Below are positions 19,309-26,423 of a stretch of 35,500 bases of DNA, piece after piece. Under the pieces are notes generated by a model. That model did not search any database and was not told the DNA's origin. It saw only the letters and a list, made by a program, of their open reading frames with translations. How positions within the stretch are numbered: the first letter of the stretch is position 1; each line of letters starts with the position of its first letter. Source of the DNA: a virus; IMG/VR virus record IMGVR_UViG_3300049727_000156, positions 1 through 35,500 of that record. One strand, written 5' to 3'. The position numbers and the translations under genes were made by a program.

Positions 19309-20292
19309 TTACTCCTTTTCGCCTCGAACTCGGTTAAGTTCGGTGGCGAGGCGGGTCACCTCGGCTTCCAGGCGTTCGGCCTCGGCGTTCTTGGGCGGTT
19401 GCTTCTCCCGTGCTTCCATCGCGGCGCGCAGCATGTCGTGTTCTCCCACGAGATCACGCTGAGTTTTCAGCAGCAGACGGATGGTGTCGCGCTCGCTGTT
19501 GAGCAGACCACCCAGCTTTGCGCTCTCACCCGACAGCTTCTGAAGCTGCTTGTTGAGCGAGTGGTTCATATTTCCCAGTGCAGCAGCCTTTTCGGTGAAG
19601 TAGCGGTCCGAGCGCATGAGAAGCTCAGCGAACTCAGCCAGCGAGGCTCCGTCGTCAGGGCGGAGCCCGAAGGCCTCGCGGATACGACTGAGGACCATCT
19701 TGGCTTCATGGCACTCAGCGGCAGCGATACCAAAGTTCTTGTCGGCGACGTCAGCTTTCATGTTGGCGACGGCAAGACGCTCGCTGATCTTGATTGCTTC
19801 GGCAGCTTCCGAACGAACTTTCTGTACTCCAGGAATGTCTTCGATGTTTATTGCGACCTTCAGTGCGCCGGCACCCAGCTTCTTCGGTGCTGGGCACTCC
19901 TTGTGCAGATCAGCATCTTCGGTGAGTTCCTTGAGCGCGGTCTGCGCATTCAGGAGTGTTCGTACGTCCGACCAGGTGGCGATGCACGTGATGATGGTGC
20001 TTTCGTAGGTCCCCAGCTTGTTCACTGCATTGAACAGACGGGCGTCCTCGAACGCCAGCGCGTTGAGACCGAGCGGTGCCACCCGGCGCGCACCGAACTC
20101 CTCGATGAGCTTGGTGAGGTAGTGGGAAGCCTTCTGCAGGTCCTGCAAGCCGTTCTTCTTCCGCCACCGGCTGACGTACTTGGCGATGCAGCCTTCCAGA
20201 TACCGGCCCTGCAGGGTGCGCTGAACGAAGTCCCAGTGCTGATACCCGGACTGGTAGTGATCACCGCCGATTTGTGTGTTGTTGGCGCTCAT
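19309..20292 (-). CDS. DUF3310 domain protein with long coiled-coil extension
   Basis: The first 65 of 327 residues match the DUF3310 pattern common in phages: IGGDHYQSGYQHWDFVQ, LEGCIAKYVSRWRKKNGLQD and LQKASHYLTKLIEEFG. DUF3310 proteins are usually short; here about 260 residues follow, mostly helical and charged, ending in a coiled coil (AEAERLEAEVTRLATELNRV). Its biochemical role is not known. ATG 20292 was chosen because GGGAGGAGG precedes it, and it overlaps the HD nucleotidase stop by four bases, so it belongs to the nucleotide metabolism operon. Confidence 0.8.
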   Translation of the reverse strand: MSANNTQIGGDHYQSGYQHWDFVQRTLQGRYLEGCIAKYVSRWRKKNGLQDLQKASHYLTKLIEEFGARRVAPLGLNALAFEDARLFNAVNKLGTYESTIITCIATWSDVRTLLNAQTALKELTEDADLHKECPAPKKLGAGALKVAINIEDIPGVQKVRSEAAEAIKISERLAVANMKADVADKNFGIAAAECHEAKMVLSRIREAFGLRPDDGASLAEFAELLMRSDRYFTEKAAALGNMNHSLNKQLQKLSGESAKLGGLLNSERDTIRLLLKTQRDLVGEHDMLRAAMEAREKQPPKNAEAERLEAEVTRLATELNRVRGEKE

Positions 20293-20789
20293 TTGGATGC
20301 CTCCTCCCAAAGGGACTTCAGTTCTTCGTAGACGGCCAGCTCGTCCTTGTTGGGGTTGAGCTCAGCAACGTAGTCGCGGAAATTGACGTAGACGTATTCG
20401 ATGCCGGCGTTGCCGAGACGACGCTCGATGATGCAGCGCAGCATACCGGACATGCGGTCCGCCATCACCAGGATGCGCTGCTCGGATTCGTTCAGAAGGA
20501 ACTTGAAGCCATGCTCCTTCAGAAGCTTCGCTTCCATCTCCTCCACAGCGTCGCCCATCGCGCAGGCCCGCTTGGTGGGGGAGGGAATGTCACCGGTCTT
20601 GTACTCGGCCAGGTCATGGGAAAGCGCCGCGAGAAGCAGCGAAGCGCCGGGGAACGCGATCAGCTGGCAAAACATGGCGACGTAGAAGCTGTGTTCGGCG
20701 ATGGTTTCCTGCGTCAGCGTCTGAACGGTGTGGTACCGTTTGGTTGCTCCCCCACGAATGAGGAAGTTGAGCCGCTCTTGTATATTCAT
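20289..20789 (-). CDS. HD-domain nucleotidase, YfbR-like
   Basis: This 166-residue enzyme has the HD hydrolase residues His33 (in AEHSFYVAMFC), His58-Asp59 (in AALSHDLAEYKTGDIPSP) and Asp111 (in VMADRMSGML). The N-terminal RYHTVQTLTQETIAEHS and the SPTKR segment match the YfbR 5'-deoxynucleotidase family, which removes phosphate from dNMPs; related phage enzymes act on dNTPs. Its ATG overlaps the TS stop by four bases (ATGA), so it is coupled to it. It could adjust the nucleotide pool for base modification, for example by removing a normal nucleotide. That role is inferred. Confidence 0.85.
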   Translation of the reverse strand: MNIQERLNFLIRGGATKRYHTVQTLTQETIAEHSFYVAMFCQLIAFPGASLLLAALSHDLAEYKTGDIPSPTKRACAMGDAVEEMEAKLLKEHGFKFLLNESEQRILVMADRMSGMLRCIIERRLGNAGIEYVYVNFRDYVAELNPNKDELAVYEELKSLWEEASK

Positions 20790-21772
20790 TTCTCTCTCCT
20801 GAGAATCCAGTCAACGCAAGCGATGCGCCAGTCCGGCGCAACAATGCTCTCCGCGATGGAAAGTCCGTTGCTCTGCTTCTGCTTGCGGGCGACCCAGGCA
20901 GTATACATCGGAATAGCGGTACCAATAAAAAATTCCTCCGTGCACTGTCTGAGGTTGCCGTTGAGGAAGTTCAGCAGGTCTGCATTCCAGCGGTCGAAGC
21001 GGGCCGCGTTGGTGAAGTTGCCGTGCGGTTCCTCGAAGATGCCGTCACGATCGAAGAAGTATTCGTCGTTGGCTAGGGCGTCGTTGGCCAGTTCCTGGAA
21101 CTTCGTCACCGGATAGACATCGGTATAGGCGTGGTAGTTGTTGCTTACCTGTCGATAGACGCCCATGGGGCAGTCCAGCGCGGATGCGATGTATTCCTGC
21201 ATCATCGACATGTGAACGACGTTCGCGCCATAGGCTCCCCAGATGATGTCGTTGCTCCGGTTGCACACGGTCATGTTCAATTTCCCATGCCGGCGATCGA
21301 AGTAGACGTTCGTATTGCAGGGAATGTCCCGGCTGCTGCTGCCCAGATCCGCGTAGGGATCCCACATCCCCAGCACGCAGCGCCGACTCTCCGGACTACG
21401 ACGAAGCTCTCCGATGATGTCCGCCAGCTGATCGCGGTCGAAGTAGCTCCGCCAACGGTACCCGTAGGCTGCGTTGAAGAGCACACCGTCATCGCTGTAG
21501 TCGACGAACCGCTTGTTGAACTGCGCTGGGAAGGCGACGTCTCTCCGACCTCCCAGCATCCACAGCGCTTCCATGAGATGGAACACTGGATTTGCATCGC
21601 GGAGAGGTGAGAAAAGAACGCGCTCCCACGGGCGCTCGTAGACAGTGGTGACGGCGGATGGGGCGACCAGCACCTTTCCGTTGCGGGAGGCCTCCACCTC
21701 GCCAAAATGCAGCAGGTATTCAAGACCCTGCGCAAATGCGCCATTTACATTGCGAGCTGAAATTACGTGCAT
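20786..21772 (-). CDS. Thymidylate synthase homologue, possible dUMP hydroxymethylase
   Basis: This 328-residue protein is in the thymidylate synthase fold family. The catalytic Cys is Cys152 in DIPCNTNVYFD; the following residue is Asn where TS usually has His. CNRSNDIIWGAYGANVVHMS contains the RS-x-D substrate motif and Asn184, which favours uracil over cytosine, and SNNYHAYTDVYP matches the later substrate motif. Phage homologues include true TS and dUMP hydroxymethylases that make 5-hydroxymethyl-dUMP. The hypermodification gene two genes upstream supports the second. AGGAGAG precedes the ATG. The start overlaps the HNH gene by ten bases. Confidence 0.85.
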   Translation of the reverse strand: MHVISARNVNGAFAQGLEYLLHFGEVEASRNGKVLVAPSAVTTVYERPWERVLFSPLRDANPVFHLMEALWMLGGRRDVAFPAQFNKRFVDYSDDGVLFNAAYGYRWRSYFDRDQLADIIGELRRSPESRRCVLGMWDPYADLGSSSRDIPCNTNVYFDRRHGKLNMTVCNRSNDIIWGAYGANVVHMSMMQEYIASALDCPMGVYRQVSNNYHAYTDVYPVTKFQELANDALANDEYFFDRDGIFEEPHGNFTNAARFDRWNADLLNFLNGNLRQCTEEFFIGTAIPMYTAWVARKQKQSNGLSIAESIVAPDWRIACVDWILRREK

Positions 21773-22260
21773 TGTGCTCTCCTCTTTGCTGCGCGTTTAA
21801 GTGCGGCCTGACGGCAGCGTTCACAGGTCTCCGGACTTCTCTTCTTTCCTCGTACTGCGTTACCTATTTTCGCGCGGTGCTCGGCGATAAGTTTCTTACG
21901 CTTTCCAGATTCTGACATCTTTGCGCGTGTTTCTGCGCTCAACTTCTTACCAAGTTTCGCGGTAGACATCTTAGCGCGAGTTTCGTCGCTTATGCTGCCA
22001 GCCGCTGCGGATATTCGTGCGCGCATAGATGCGGTAACCTCGTGTCCTGTTTTATGTAGTGTTGTGTGCGCACCAGCAGTCATTACCCGCAAATTTCCTA
22101 CTTTGTTATTGAGCTTATTACCATCTTTATGGTGGAGGATGTGGCCCGGCGGTACGCGAAGTTTCCGGTATTTCCACCAGACGTAGTAATGCTCACTTAT
22201 CCACCGAGTTCCAAATTCTTCATGCGCGACAACCTTTCGCTGCAAATACCCTCCACGCAT
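21763..22260 (-). CDS. HNH homing endonuclease with NUMOD3 repeats
   Basis: This 165-residue protein has an HNH domain (GHILHHKDGNKLNNKVGNLR, then AHTTLH) followed by repeated basic segments (SDETRAKMSTAKLGKKLSAE, TRAKMSESGK) typical of NUMOD3 DNA-binding motifs, and a Cys pair near the C-terminus (CERCRQ). I chose ATG 22260, with GGAG eight bases upstream; ATG 22266 is nearly equal, and the open frame extends to 22371 inside the neighbouring gene. Base composition is clearly poorer in GC than its neighbours: lines 21901-21960 and 22081-22140 have 28 and 23 G+C of 60. It is a likely mobile intruder in the modification operon, with its end overlapping the TS start. Confidence 0.85.
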   Translation of the reverse strand: MRGGYLQRKVVAHEEFGTRWISEHYYVWWKYRKLRVPPGHILHHKDGNKLNNKVGNLRVMTAGAHTTLHKTGHEVTASMRARISAAAGSISDETRAKMSTAKLGKKLSAETRAKMSESGKRKKLIAEHRAKIGNAVRGKKRSPETCERCRQAALKRAAKRRAQCT

Positions 22261-22276
22261 TCGCATTTCTCCGTCT

Positions 22277-23137
22277 TTAGCGTCTCGCTGGCCCATACTC
22301 CGCACCTCCAGGATATCGAGATTTTGGCCGTCCTTCACCATTCTTTGCACGTAAATATTTATCGATTTCACAATTGCACGACTGAAGGTCTTGAGCGTGA
22401 AGACGGGGATAGCCGAGTTTCTCGATGACCTTGTTGACAGTGGCGTGAAGCTTCTGCAGTTCGAAGAGCCACTCCTCTTCCGACCAGGGCGCGTTCAGGG
22501 GACGACCCAGGACACGGTTGAGTCCGCGCCTGCTACCAGGGCCGCTCGCCGCCCATGTCCACCAGTCCGTGGCGTCGGCCAGGCAGGTCGTATACTTCAC
22601 GTCAGCCGTAACCTGGGCGGCCATGAACGTGCCGAAGTGGTGGACCGACGCGAGCCGCTCGGTGAAGCTTTTCAGAGTGTCCCCAGTGCGAGGACGCAGT
22701 TCTGCACGCCGACTCCACAGAACGGTGAACAGGCCGGTCAGAAACTCCGGCAGCGGCTGCTTGTCGCCGTGGGTGGTGATCATATACGCACCGTTGATCA
22801 GCTTCTGATGGTTGCGCTTCCGCCGTTCCATGGTGGCGCGGAACTTCTCCGGGTTCCAGGTCTTCGGGTATCCCAGATCCTCCAAGGTCTCCGGCAGGTT
22901 GATCCAGCGGGCGACGCACATGGCGAACCACACATCCTTGTCGTCCTTGTGCTTGTCCCGCCAGTTATTGGCGATCCACACGGTGACCGCGTCAAGTTCT
23001 CGGTAGATGTTGCAGAAGCGATACATCTGCAAGAGCGGGTCCTTGGTCCAGGGCCGGGGTTGCTCAAGAAACCTGCGCATGTAGACCGCATGCCGCTCCT
23101 TGATGAAATAGATCAACTCCTTTTCGAGGTTGATCAT
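22277..23137 (-). CDS. 5-hmdU DNA kinase helical domain / aGPT-Pplase family hypermodification enzyme
   Basis: This 286-residue protein matches, from memory, the family of 5-hmdU DNA kinase helical domains and alpha-glutamyl/putrescinyl thymine pyrophosphorylases (HMUDK_hel, PF18723), which act on 5-hydroxymethyluracil in phage DNA. Key parts are KERHAVYMRRFLEQPRPWTK (about 13-32), DPLLQMYRFCNIYRELDAVT (33-52) and the ending LHAQDLQSCNCEIDKYLR with GEGRPKSRY. No P-loop is present in the protein. The ATG overlaps the glycosyltransferase stop (ATGA), so the two are coupled. It may replace the activated 5-hydroxymethyl group with an amine or amino acid. An alternative is a structural helper without catalysis. 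Confidence 0.8.
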   Translation of the reverse strand: MINLEKELIYFIKERHAVYMRRFLEQPRPWTKDPLLQMYRFCNIYRELDAVTVWIANNWRDKHKDDKDVWFAMCVARWINLPETLEDLGYPKTWNPEKFRATMERRKRNHQKLINGAYMITTHGDKQPLPEFLTGLFTVLWSRRAELRPRTGDTLKSFTERLASVHHFGTFMAAQVTADVKYTTCLADATDWWTWAASGPGSRRGLNRVLGRPLNAPWSEEEWLFELQKLHATVNKVIEKLGYPRLHAQDLQSCNCEIDKYLRAKNGEGRPKSRYPGGAEYGPARR

Positions 23138-23937
23138 TTCGCACCGCGCTGGGAAGAATCGTATGCCTTCTTCCAATACACAGTGCAGTCGGTCCGGGTC
23201 TGCCCATTCCACGCGCCCTTGGTGGTTTTCTCCACGACGCGGACGAAGGGCTCGTGCAACTTGGCGAGGCCAAGGGCACCTTCCCGCTGCTTCTCCATGG
23301 TCCGGTAGGTGGAGCATCCACCCGGCGCGTTGCTACTGCCCTGGCCCTGACACCAGCCGGTGAGCAGTGCGTTCTTGTAACCTTTCCGGAGAAGTTGGAG
23401 CGCGACGTCGAAGTCCTCCATGATGATGATGCGGTCGAACCGGATCTTCTCGCGGCGGAAGACCTCGACGTCGTAAGCCAGCAGCCGGAGCAGCCGGGTG
23501 CACTCCACGATGGGACCGCTCTCGGCGAAGCGGTTTCCGCCCTCCCGCGCGCACACGCCCGCGTGGGCATACTTCCCCAGCGTCTTTTCGAGTGTGGCGA
23601 AGAGAGCCGCGATGTCCTTTTGCGTCGACGCCAAGAACTTGCCGGGGTCATCCGTCCGCCGGGTGCAGAACCCCAGGTCGTCGTCGAGCATGACTATCTT
23701 CGGGCCGTGTACCTCCACCGCATGGCGTTCCATCACGTACTGGCGCACCTTCCCGATGGTGTTGACGGAGGGCGGGCAGACAAGCACGCCCGCGCCTTCC
23801 TCCAGATATTTGGCGTACAGCTTCTTCTCCCGGCTGTCAACGACCAACGTGGTATTGGCGTGTAGCTTGGGAGGCAGTTCATGGAACGTCTTCTGGTCCT
23901 CGGACCGCCCGAAAGTCGGGATATAGATTCGTAACAT
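23134..23937 (-). CDS. GT-A glycosyltransferase, TET-associated (TAGT) type
   Basis: This 267-residue protein has the TAGT-like layout: N-terminal YIPTFGRSEDQKTFHELPPK, a Rossmann-like TLVVDSREKKLY, PPSVNTIGKVRQYVMERHA, and a triple Asp (VMLDDDLGF, 85-87) that would bind metal and the nucleotide sugar. IIIMEDFDVALQLLRKGY has an acidic pair for the later catalytic part. TAGT proteins were described with base-modification systems in phages. Placed directly upstream of the hypermodification gene, it may add a sugar to modified thymidine. AGGAGAATTCTC precedes ATG 23937. Sugar and target are unknown. Confidence 0.8.
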   Translation of the reverse strand: MLRIYIPTFGRSEDQKTFHELPPKLHANTTLVVDSREKKLYAKYLEEGAGVLVCPPSVNTIGKVRQYVMERHAVEVHGPKIVMLDDDLGFCTRRTDDPGKFLASTQKDIAALFATLEKTLGKYAHAGVCAREGGNRFAESGPIVECTRLLRLLAYDVEVFRREKIRFDRIIIMEDFDVALQLLRKGYKNALLTGWCQGQGSSNAPGGCSTYRTMEKQREGALGLAKLHEPFVRVVEKTTKGAWNGQTRTDCTVYWKKAYDSSQRGAK

Positions 23938-24013: not shown

Positions 24014-24646
24014 CTAGTTCAGTTCGATGAACCCTGCCGCTTCGTCGTAGCGCAGATCGCCGGTCCGGCCACCCTTGGCCAGGAAGTCGTCGGTGGTCTT
24101 GCAGGTCTTGTAGAGCTCGAAGCGGTCGAAGCTGGCCGATCCGGTGCGCTTGGGGTTGGTGGCGGACAGCAGCTTGATCTTCTGGTTGTCACGCTTCCGG
24201 CCGATGGTCTTCTCGGCGGCCTCTTCCTTCTTGGGGGCGGCCTTCGCCTTGGGTTCGGCCTTGGGGGCGGGAGCGGACTTCGGAGCCACCTGACCCTTGA
24301 CAGGGGCCACAGGGGTCTTCTTGGGCGCTTCCTTCTTGGGAGCGGTCTTCTCGGTCTTGGGCGCAGTCTTCTTTTCGGCCATGGAATCCTCCTTGAGGAT
24401 GGTTGTGAGGCGCGCGAAGGCGCGTCCGGTTATGCGAAAGCAACCAATGTTGTCCAGATACCGCTTGGTTGCGCGCCCTACATCGTAGAGCATCGGGGAG
24501 AAGAGCCGATCGAACGTCTCGTTCGGCATCTTGTGAACGTCGACATCGTGCCCATCATTCTCGATGAACTCCGTATGTCGCTTACCAACTGAAAGACGAA
24601 TGCAGACATGGCTGTGCGCGTCTTTGAAAACAACCTCATCGCTCAT
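24014..24646 (-). CDS. Lys/Ala/Pro-rich protein with C-terminal NPKR domain (paralogue 1), two possible starts
   Basis: The frame gives 210 residues. From 24382 an in-frame ATG follows a strong ribosome site (AAGGAGGATTCC), so a 122-residue short form (MAEKKTAPKTEKTAPKKEAP... onward) is likely made on its own. That form has a Lys/Ala/Pro-rich tail like histone H1 tails, then a C-terminal domain with TNPKRTGSASFDRFELYKTC, KTTDDFLAKGG and a final FIEL. Two paralogues occur at 32663-33232 and 35219-35500. The N-terminal 88 residues of the long form (MSDEVVFKDAHSHVCIRLS...) look like a small separate domain. Possibly DNA-binding; not proven. Confidence 0.7.
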   Translation of the reverse strand: MSDEVVFKDAHSHVCIRLSVGKRHTEFIENDGHDVDVHKMPNETFDRLFSPMLYDVGRATKRYLDNIGCFRITGRAFARLTTILKEDSMAEKKTAPKTEKTAPKKEAPKKTPVAPVKGQVAPKSAPAPKAEPKAKAAPKKEEAAEKTIGRKRDNQKIKLLSATNPKRTGSASFDRFELYKTCKTTDDFLAKGGRTGDLRYDEAAGFIELN

Positions 24647-24697: not shown

Positions 24698-26134
24698 TTA
24701 TCGCCGCCGAGACTTTGTTTTTGCGTATTCTTTCAAGGCGTCGAGGAAGTTGTTCTGGTTCTTTTTCTTGAATCCCATGGCGCGGAGCAAGACTTCGTCC
24801 ACCGTGTCCCTGGCGATGATATGGTGGTTGAATACTGTCTTACTTCGCTGACCCTGCCTTAGGATACGCTTGATTGACTGATCATAGTCCTCATAATTCC
24901 AGGTCATGCTGTGCCAGATGAAATGATACCCGGATTCCTGAAGATTCAGACCGTGGGCGATTGACTGCGGCTGCCCGAGGAGGACGGGTAGGTTGCCGGC
25001 GTTCCACTCTGCCTCGATCTCTCTGGATCGCTTGGGAGCGACCCCACCGCCGATGAAGGGAGTGTTCTTTCCCAGGGCCTTGAGGAGGCGCTCGCGATCA
25101 TGGTGAAACTCGTAGGTGACGATGACAGGGCTGCCACCGATCTCCTCGAGAAGCTCCAGGACGGCCTCTGTCTTCTGATCGTGGATTGTTACCCACTTAT
25201 CCGAGTCCAGGACCGGGGCGTCCTCCAGCTGCCGATACAACCCACCGTTCGCGACTTGTCGGCACTTCATGCTGGCGGCCGCAGCGCTCATGGCGGTGAC
25301 AACCTCATCGCCGGTGATCGTGGCGATGAGCAGGTCTTCCAGGTCGTCGTAGATCTTCCTCGCGCTCTCCGGAAGGTCGATCCGCACCGTGCTGTTTACC
25401 AGCTCCGGCAGCTCCAGATAGTCGCCAGCCTCCAGACGCAGAGTCAGCGGCCGCACCAGTTCGTAGATCTGCTCCTCGGCACCCGGCTTCAGTGACCACG
25501 AATAGCCGCCAAACCCGTAAGGGTCAAAGAACTTGTTCTTGTAGTGCGTGATGAACGGGCTGAGCGCGTTGCCTTGGTCCAAGATATAGATCTGGCCGAA
25601 GAGGTCGAGCATGCCGTTGGGGACGGGCGTGCCGGTGAGAATCCAGCGGCGCTTGAACTTCCCCAGATTGGGCTTGAGATCCTTGAACCGGCGCGTCTGG
25701 GTGTTCTTGAACCGGCTGCTCTCGTCGATGACCAGCGTGTCCGGATTGAGGATCTTGAACCTTCCCTCACGGGAAAGCCAGTCGAGGCCCTCAGGATTGA
25801 TCAGGTAGACGTCGGCGTCCCGCTTGAGTGCCTTCTCCTTCCCACTCCCGTGGAGAACTTCGACACGCAGATGATCGAAGTCGGCCCATTTCTCCACCTC
25901 GCGCGGCCACACGGAGTAGCACACGCGGAGGGGAGCGACGATGAGGACACGGTTGAGGATTCCCTCGCGCTTCAGCAGCTTGATGGCGGCGAGCGTTATT
26001 GACGTTTTGCCCAGCCCTGGGTCAAGGAAGAGTCCAGCAGACCCATGCTCAAGAAGGAACTTTACGGCCTTCTTTTGGTAGTCATGGGGTCGCCAGTTTT
26101 GAGCCTCGGGCTTTACGATCATAGCCGACGGCAT
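24698..26134 (-). CDS. SNF2-family DEAD/DEAH-type helicase
   Basis: This ATP-dependent helicase or translocase (about 478 residues) has motif Q-like WRPHDYQKKAVKFLLEHGSA, Walker A FLDPGLGKTS, motif Ia LIVAPLRVCYSVWP, motif II VIDESSRFKN, motif III ILTGTPVPNGMLDLFGQIY, and the second domain with LLGQPQSIAHGLNLQ, HSMTWNYEDYDQSIKRILRQ and GQ. These are SF2 SNF2-like phage helicase motifs. The start is uncertain: ATGs at 26134, 26122 and 26194 lack a good ribosome site, and the gene overlaps VRR-NUC. It lies in a cluster of DNA processing genes and probably remodels DNA in replication or recombination. Confidence 0.88.
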   Translation of the reverse strand: MPSAMIVKPEAQNWRPHDYQKKAVKFLLEHGSAGLFLDPGLGKTSITLAAIKLLKREGILNRVLIVAPLRVCYSVWPREVEKWADFDHLRVEVLHGSGKEKALKRDADVYLINPEGLDWLSREGRFKILNPDTLVIDESSRFKNTQTRRFKDLKPNLGKFKRRWILTGTPVPNGMLDLFGQIYILDQGNALSPFITHYKNKFFDPYGFGGYSWSLKPGAEEQIYELVRPLTLRLEAGDYLELPELVNSTVRIDLPESARKIYDDLEDLLIATITGDEVVTAMSAAAASMKCRQVANGGLYRQLEDAPVLDSDKWVTIHDQKTEAVLELLEEIGGSPVIVTYEFHHDRERLLKALGKNTPFIGGGVAPKRSREIEAEWNAGNLPVLLGQPQSIAHGLNLQESGYHFIWHSMTWNYEDYDQSIKRILRQGQRSKTVFNHHIIARDTVDEVLLRAMGFKKKNQNNFLDALKEYAKTKSRRR

Positions 26135-26423
26135 CGAGGCGCTTCTGAATTGCGGCGATGGCTTCCTTTTTATCACTGTGTACCTCGATGTCATAGCCTT
26201 GCTCGCGCATCAGCTTGTGGAAGTTTTCCTGCAGAGGTGTCGGCTCTGCGCCCGGTTTCTTGAATTCGATCCAGAAAGGCCTCCCGCCGGGGATGGGGAA
26301 GATTCTGTCCGGCCACGCGCGGTAGCCAAGTCCGTTCATCTTGCGAGACGGCAGTAGTCCGAGGCTCTTCCACCACCGGACTACCGGATTCTCGACGTCG
26401 CGTACTTCAAGAATCTTTGCCAT
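26082..26423 (-). CDS. VRR-NUC domain nuclease
   Basis: This 113-residue PD-(D/E)XK nuclease has the VRR-NUC core: GYRAWPDRIFPIPGGRPFWI with Asp39 and EFKKPGAEPTPLQ with Glu53-x-Lys55, followed by a helix (ENFHKLMREQGYDIEV). VRR-NUC proteins cleave branched DNA and occur widely in phages next to helicases. It overlaps the SNF2 helicase by 53 bases with the chosen start, which suggests they act together. GAGGAGGCAAG precedes the ATG. Confidence 0.88.
   Translation of the reverse strand: MAKILEVRDVENPVVRWWKSLGLLPSRKMNGLGYRAWPDRIFPIPGGRPFWIEFKKPGAEPTPLQENFHKLMREQGYDIEVHSDKKEAIAAIQKRLDAVGYDRKARGSKLATP

Follow-up and report, generated by a model that had tools for sequence, protein, structure and literature searches.

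In three phages, M6 of Pseudomonas, ViI of Salmonella and phiW-14 of Delftia, the genes of thymidine hypermodification comprise a thymidylate synthase (TS) homologue, a kinase (PF18748), a protein of the HMUDK_hel/aGPT-Pplase1 family (PF18723) and the amino acid:DNA transferase ADDT (PF18724). The DNA of M6 carries a base derived from 5-hydroxymethyldeoxyuridine (hmdU; PMC6449724), and SN1 has been described as having cassettes of the M6 type that include aGPT-Pplase1 and, as a separate protein, a nucleotide kinase (PMC9476957). A gene cluster in pelagiphages of the HTVC023P type, which a 2022 paper noted might broaden the M6-type system, combines a TS, aG/PT-PPlase1, a 5'-deoxynucleotidase and a putative beta-glucosyl-HMC-alpha-glucosyltransferase (PMC9599517). 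The same combination is found in an operon at positions 20289 to 23937 of the virus record examined here, the 35.5-kb IMG/VR entry IMGVR_UViG_3300049727_000156 (the window, labelled G000). This operon resembles the M6, ViI and phiW-14 systems in the group to which its TS belongs, in its HMUDK_hel family member and, as in M6, in the position of an HD nucleotidase gene downstream of TS; it differs from them in having neither kinase nor ADDT and in carrying a GT-A glycosyltransferase in the cassette. We suggest that it encodes a branch of thymidine hypermodification that adds a sugar and does without the kinase, with HMUDK_hel as a shared module acting on hmdU in DNA, and we estimate the probability of this reading at roughly 0.6.

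All genes of the operon lie on the minus strand and are transcribed from high toward low coordinates. The first encodes a 267-residue TAGT-family GT-A glycosyltransferase (23134-23937; PF20691, E = 1.2e-21; phrog_842, E = 1.1e-47), whose Pfam match reaches 78 bits against a cut-off of 27.5 and spans positions 2-205 of the 205-position profile. It is followed by a 286-residue HMUDK_hel/aGPT-Pplase1 protein (22277-23137; PF18723, E = 5.8e-43, 147.7 bits against a cut-off of 25, residues 7-267), a 328-residue enzyme of the TS superfamily (20786-21772; PF00303, E = 2.7e-17; phrog_5131, E = 1.5e-110) and a 166-residue YfbR-like HD 5'-deoxynucleotidase (20289-20789; PF12917, E = 1.9e-15). Four bases are shared by TAGT and HMUDK_hel (23134-23137) and four by TS and HD (20786-20789). 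The initial annotation, made from the letters of the DNA, had named all four families and both overlaps; the overlaps are exact and the profile scores lie far above their cut-offs. Chance is no explanation for the set, given E-values this extreme and the recurrence of this gene set in dozens of other phages.

The triple aspartate that first marked the glycosyltransferase (residues D85, D86 and D87) is invariant among 49 homologues. An AlphaFold2 (AF2) model of the protein (mean predicted local distance difference test score, pLDDT, 95.7) has a GT-A fold, and its best Foldseek match is TarP, a GT-A enzyme that uses UDP-GlcNAc (E = 2.7e-7). The enzyme had been called unusual, a description that does not survive an alignment-based scan of IMG/VR: it is part of an extensive clade of phage enzymes with 436 relatives, the best 80 of which were retained for further analysis. 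Among annotated phages searched with tblastn, its nearest counterparts are in the Brevibacterium phage LuckyBarnes and in ctUhy936. Of the 753 phage genomes in a 2026 survey, 288 had solitary TAGTs, which lack any known partner transferase and which the survey termed potentially novel transferases (PMC13216743). The link between a large TAGT clade, a TS resembling a dUMP hydroxymethylase and HMUDK_hel leads directly to the prediction that the sugar is placed on 5-hydroxymethyl-dU.

The identity of the modified base bears on this prediction. By tblastn the window TS is closest to the enzymes of M6-type phages (45% identical to that of M6), and the residues C152, R172, S173, D175, N184, H214 and Y216, which represent the TS catalytic residues and the uracil-type asparagine, are present in it and kept in all 153 TAGT-type loci. 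In T4 dCMP hydroxymethylase, Asp179 determines specificity for dCMP over dUMP (PMC6400193). The equivalent residue is N184 in the window enzyme, and asparagine occupies this site in 153 of 153 TAGT-type, 57 of 57 aligned kinase-type and 9 of 9 GT-B-type loci. Because asparagine stands at this site in every one of the 153 TAGT-type enzymes, we argue that the substrate is dUMP. We propose, from the identity to M6 and the HMUDK_hel context, that the window enzyme makes hydroxymethyl-dUMP rather than dTMP, and that the HD nucleotidase, whose gene recurs downstream of TS among many relatives, removes competing deoxynucleoside monophosphates.

One could instead suppose that cytosine is the modified base, or that the TS is a thymidylate synthase of the ordinary kind, and that TAGT acts either on hydroxymethylcytosine (hmC), as it does in T-even phages, or on an acceptor other than DNA. 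The TAGT of T2 and T6 does act on glucosylated hmC (PMC13216743), a dCMP hydroxymethylase was predicted in the announcement of the LuckyBarnes genome (PMC6588365), and the solved protein closest to the window TS is the CMP 5-hydroxymethylase MilA (E = 1.9e-14, versus 2e-10 for a true TS). MilA, however, has aspartate at the position aligned with N184, the nearest TS relatives are those of the M6 group, and HMUDK_hel follows the phages that decorate hmdU. Taken together, these points make a cytosine target or an ordinary synthase highly improbable.

To see which enzymes accompany HMUDK_hel and TAGT, four locus sets from IMG/VR scans were compared (one TAGT-anchored and three HMUDK_hel-anchored, about 250 related loci in all), each made up of the best matches to selected queries rather than a random sample. 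The 80 TAGT-anchored loci include 77 with TAGT, HMUDK_hel and TS, two with TAGT and TS, and one with TAGT and HMUDK_hel; neither kinase nor ADDT occurs in any of the 80. The first HMUDK_hel-anchored set contains 28 loci with TAGT, 38 with kinase and/or ADDT, 14 with neither and none with both, and the next two sets combined contain 46 with TAGT, 30 with kinase, 7 with GT-B, 18 with neither and, again, none with both. When HMUDK_hel proteins were made non-redundant at 80%, 68 of the 153 that remained had TAGT as partner, 52 had kinase or ADDT, 13 had GT-B or other transferase candidates, 20 had none of these and none had both. Only the cassette proteins of L167 and L178 exceed the Pfam cut-off for Glycos_transf_1. 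Those of L224, L254, L265 and L256, which lack Pfam support, were rejected as GT-B enzymes and retained as transferase candidates. A subgroup of HMUDK_hel loci (L162, L166, L168, L173, L180 and L187) has no TS, kinase, TAGT or GT-B inside 3-6 kb.

The same division holds for longer records. HMUDK_hel occurs with kinase and ADDT and without TAGT in M6, TM26, G002 and G005, and with TAGT and without kinase or ADDT in the window, its companion contig G001, G003, G004 and LuckyBarnes. The profile for ADDT (PF18724) found the protein in M6, G002, G005 and TM26 and gave no match in G000/G001, G003, G004 or LuckyBarnes. Whole records were searched because the kinase and HMUDK_hel genes of ViI stand about 49 kb apart, and a wider kinase profile (A6) was used since PF18748 alone misses the kinase of phiW-14, which A6 finds at E = 2.7e-16. 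Neither profile detected a 5-hmdU kinase in the approximately 46 kb of G000/G001; controls were positive. At E <= 1, A6 found the kinase in ViI and phiW-14 and in none of 13 TAGT-type records (G000 and G001 among them being the same virus); at E <= 1e-3 it found none in 29 further TAGT-type records and 7 with GT-B or other transferases, and recovered six of six kinase-type controls. The negative TAGT-type records include the complete genome of LuckyBarnes, the circular ctUhy936 and several longer than 60 kb. Conversely, a TAGT profile (A5) that found three of three controls matched none of 23 kinase-type records and none of 5 records with GT-B or other transferases. In GenBank, the 5-hmdU P-loop kinases at L021:3686-4249 (M6 gp054) and L202:704-1366 (ViI orf00067) are misannotated as terminase small subunits.

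The initial annotation had anticipated that a kinase would lie elsewhere in the genome or be replaced. As far as sequence tells, replacement is what has occurred: no kinase turned up in the roughly 46 kb covered for this virus, nor in another 40 TAGT-type records. A pathway that still runs through the kinase and an amino acid, with kinase and transferase placed elsewhere or of an unrecognised type and the TAGT sugar added later or to something else, would draw on the distance between the two genes in ViI, on the failure of PF18748 with phiW-14 and on the fact that the 46 kb covered is less than a full genome. Against it stand the 42 TAGT-type records in which a profile with positive controls found no kinase, and the absence of ADDT as well from the TAGT-type records tested, and we attach very little weight to it. 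Since both of the enzymes that define the kinase-dependent pathway were sought and neither was found, we set the operon outside that pathway, as a sugar branch parallel to it.

The decorating enzymes have evidently been exchanged many times. A tree of 133 HMUDK_hel proteins with three partner classes requires 26 partner changes, and its supported branches force at least 11 changes for TAGT, at least 10 for kinase and at least 10 for GT-B; 15 are required when TAGT and kinase are counted alone. The GT-B label in the tree takes in several proteins without Pfam support, which makes its count the least certain. Eleven independent supported pairs differ in TAGT; kinase shows the reverse difference in about 6 of them and the parallel difference in 0 (median p 0.03). 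Close HMUDK_hel proteins can have unlike partners, as in L224/L226 (73% identical), L265/L272 (63%), L136/L140 (63%) and L167/L171 (64%). In co-linear loci with the order polymerase-exonuclease-helicase-cassette-HMUDK_hel-TS-HD-DUF3310, the cassette position holds TAGT in three loci (the window, L037 and L042); L224 has a GT-B-like candidate there, and L226 has ADDT plus kinase. These observations suggest that phages repeatedly swap TAGT for the kinase and amino-acid enzymes, keeping the core proteins and never carrying both.

Other genes also occupy or adjoin the cassette place. A GT-B gene, encoding a non-homologous glycosyltransferase, lies directly upstream of HMUDK_hel-TS at L167:4764-6011 and L178:4731-5990, where there is no TAGT or kinase. 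At L160:596-4796 (IMGVR_UViG_3300033143_001775) an HMUDK_hel-TS-HD operon stands beside genes resembling those for a PIG-L deacetylase, an APS kinase and a sulfotransferase, possibly for a sulfated amino-sugar on hmdU. Two HMUDK_hel loci that lack both TAGT and kinase contain a radical SAM gene, at L213:8202-9200, which has a SPASM domain, and at L265:5575-6573, assigned by sequence likeness alone; both genes adjoin one for a possible transferase of 354-379 residues.

The HMUDK_hel protein of the window is 34% identical to M6 gp055, and tblastn places it near those of M6 and of phages of Rhizobium and Stenotrophomonas. Twelve polar residues (R15, N43, R46, D49, R77, Y118, D179, D191, R204, C256, E257 and K260) are near-invariant with every partner, at 91% or more in each partner class and most of them in nearly all proteins. 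Because these residues are conserved, HMUDK_hel appears to do one job alongside all its partners and not to be merely a piece of the kinase, and their persistence where kinase is undetected calls into question the family label "5-hmdU DNA kinase, helical domain". HMUDK_hel is present in ViI, phiW-14, LuckyBarnes and two further phages and absent from SPO1 and CampHawk, of the hmU-DNA group, and from T2, T4 and T6, which have hmC DNA. By this pattern HMUDK_hel tracks the post-replicative decoration of hmdU, and not hmdU or TAGT itself.

The AF2 model of HMUDK_hel is entirely helical (pLDDT 94.4), and its matches in BFVD are other HMUDK_hel models, a 637-residue "5-hmdU DNA kinase" of Bacillus phage SP10 and, weakly, models of ADDT (E from 2.4e-3 to 0.14). 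With the sugar pathway otherwise unchanged, HMUDK_hel may itself be the enzyme for a step shared by all these pathways, such as activation of the hydroxymethyl group through the invariant cysteine or conversion of undecorated hmdU to thymine. The near-invariant polar residues resemble an active site, phiW-14 replaces some of its hmU by thymine by mechanisms that are unknown (PMC5977210), SPO1 and CampHawk do without the protein, and the weak likeness to ADDT would fit. The SP10 kinase, by contrast, contains the HMUDK_hel fold, which suggests cooperation with a kinase; there is no recognisable cofactor site; and the solved ADDT (8z2m) is not among the best 50 fold matches of HMUDK_hel in the PDB. 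We regard an enzymatic HMUDK_hel as unlikely, and as the main rival on mechanism. Homology to ADDT was rejected, profile comparison with hhalign giving 29 columns at 1.6% probability and the BFVD values being merely suggestive. An HhH-GPD glycosylase fold, considered because of a GxG...GPGxxRG motif, found no support: the PDB has no fold match at E < 1, and a viral 3-methyladenine glycosylase reached just E = 1.7 in BFVD. In the first two locus sets, no single open frame joins HMUDK_hel to TAGT or to kinase.

In the pathway that we favour, the kinase-free sugar branch, the TS-superfamily enzyme would make 5-hydroxymethyl-dUMP while the HD nucleotidase lowered the competing monophosphates, and hmdU would be polymerised into phage DNA in place of part of the thymine. 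HMUDK_hel would then recognise or present hmdU within DNA, and TAGT would move a sugar from a nucleotide-sugar directly onto the hydroxymethyl group. At the same point, phages of the M6, ViI and phiW-14 type instead phosphorylate that group with the P-loop kinase, after which an amino acid is attached. The decorating enzyme would be an exchangeable cassette beside a conserved HMUDK_hel-TS-HD core. The idea of a glycosylated base derived from 5-hmdU had already been put forward for this DNA, and the present analysis supports it; we hold the sugar on hmdU to be more secure than the role given to HMUDK_hel. A broader proposal, which seems to us somewhat likelier to be wrong than right, is that HMUDK_hel is no kinase domain and instead forms the core, catalytic or base-presenting, that every kind of post-replicative hmdU decoration has in common, that the enzymes adjoining it are interchangeable (kinase plus ADDT, TAGT, GT-B-like proteins, possibly sulfotransferase/APS kinase and PIG-L), and that phages thereby make many undiscovered thymidines that are glycosylated, perhaps sulfated or deacetylated.

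Several observations weigh against the sugar branch as drawn. Both the circular ctUhy936 and the 50.7-kb L059 carry TAGT and TS with no detectable HMUDK_hel, so TAGT can apparently function without it. The HMUDK_hel model has no fold match in the PDB at E < 1, and the protein has no solved homologue, which is why base presentation is offered as an inference. The TAGT of T-even phages puts a second sugar on a base that is already glucosylated (PMC13216743), and direct transfer to hmdU would involve a different acceptor. The head and packaging region is missing from the sequence covered for this virus, and the selection of the locus sets also counts here.

The window is probably a fragment of a myovirus: its plus strand encodes tail sheath, tape measure and baseplate proteins, and its minus strand carries the replication genes. 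Contig G001 (IMGVR_UViG_3300049728_000207) is 100% identical to it across 24.6 kb and adds 10.7 kb at its right end; we treat the two as one virus, for which they together cover about 46 kb. GenBank phages gave no DNA-level match to the window, and a search of 84,980 bacterial genomes for a host gave 3 matches, all to contigs of metagenome-assembled genomes. Upstream of the cassette, a SNF2-type helicase (24698-26194, minus strand; PF00176, E = 8.5e-26) is a landmark kept in L037, L224, L226, L042 and L038. Downstream, a DUF3310 protein with a long C-terminal extension (19309-20310, minus strand; PF11753, E = 6e-9) has the same place in L037, L224, L226 and L042, the order being kept among relatives.

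The operon genes had been taken to be consecutive. Their places and overlaps are as described; what was overlooked is an HNH_3/NUMOD3 gene (21763-22266, minus strand; PF13392, E = 1.3e-8; PF07460, E = 9e-6) that separates HMUDK_hel from TS and overlaps the start of TS by 10 bases. Its product is most likely 167 residues long, the start codon being inferred (the longest open reading frame starts at 22371). In L037, the nearest relative, the operon is otherwise the same but HMUDK_hel directly adjoins TS and leaves no space for such a gene, which gives the window's extra gene the appearance of a free-standing homing endonuclease that entered the operon. In phiW-14, an annotated homing endonuclease also adjoins the HMUDK_hel gene. 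Elsewhere in this virus, proteins encoded at 24014-24646 (minus strand) and at L010:10547-10957 (plus strand) have a common small C-terminal motif, NPKR[TP]G[ST]AS..., behind Ala/Lys-rich linkers, and a protein like them fills the cassette place of L276. A tRNA-Ala (tgc) gene lies in the contig extension past the right end of the window (L010:9633-9708); the window itself contains none.

Set beside described systems, the gene combination is not new, having been noted in the pelagiphages. The available portion of that account does not mention the missing kinase, exclusivity or cassette exchange (PMC9599517), and we did not find exclusivity or recurrent exchange in the literature searched, a search that left the key primary pathway papers outside. 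LuckyBarnes gp38-gp41 resemble the window operon in the adjacency of TS, TAGT and HMUDK_hel and in the lack of kinase and ADDT from a complete record; they differ in having two tandem TAGTs, a long TS and no HD gene next door. The tandem genes (L022:7989-9600) encode proteins about 34% identical to each other, which suggests that two sugars are added in sequence. Growing on Brevibacterium iodinum, LuckyBarnes is a cultured phage in which the prediction can be tested at once. The T-even TAGT (the beta-glucosyl-HMC-alpha-glucosyltransferase of T2 and T6) shares PF20691 and the GT-A fold with the window enzyme, and differs as the second sugar transferase on hmC DNA, accompanied by an alpha-glucosyltransferase and dCMP hydroxymethylase and not by HMUDK_hel.

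The expected product falls in the same class as base J, the glucosylated 5-hmU of kinetoplastids, in which it is likewise the hydroxymethyl group of 5-hmU within DNA that bears the sugar. In base J synthesis, hmU is made within DNA by TET/JBP dioxygenases, and the TAGT family takes its name from association with a dioxygenase of this kind. General scans of the window's proteins, from a fragment record and with no search aimed at TET, gave no TET/JBP match. Unlike that of base J, the hmU proposed here would come from a TS-type enzyme before polymerisation, and if the reading is true, the presence of glycosylated hmU in numerous lineages of phages would broaden the known chemistry of DNA glycosylation.

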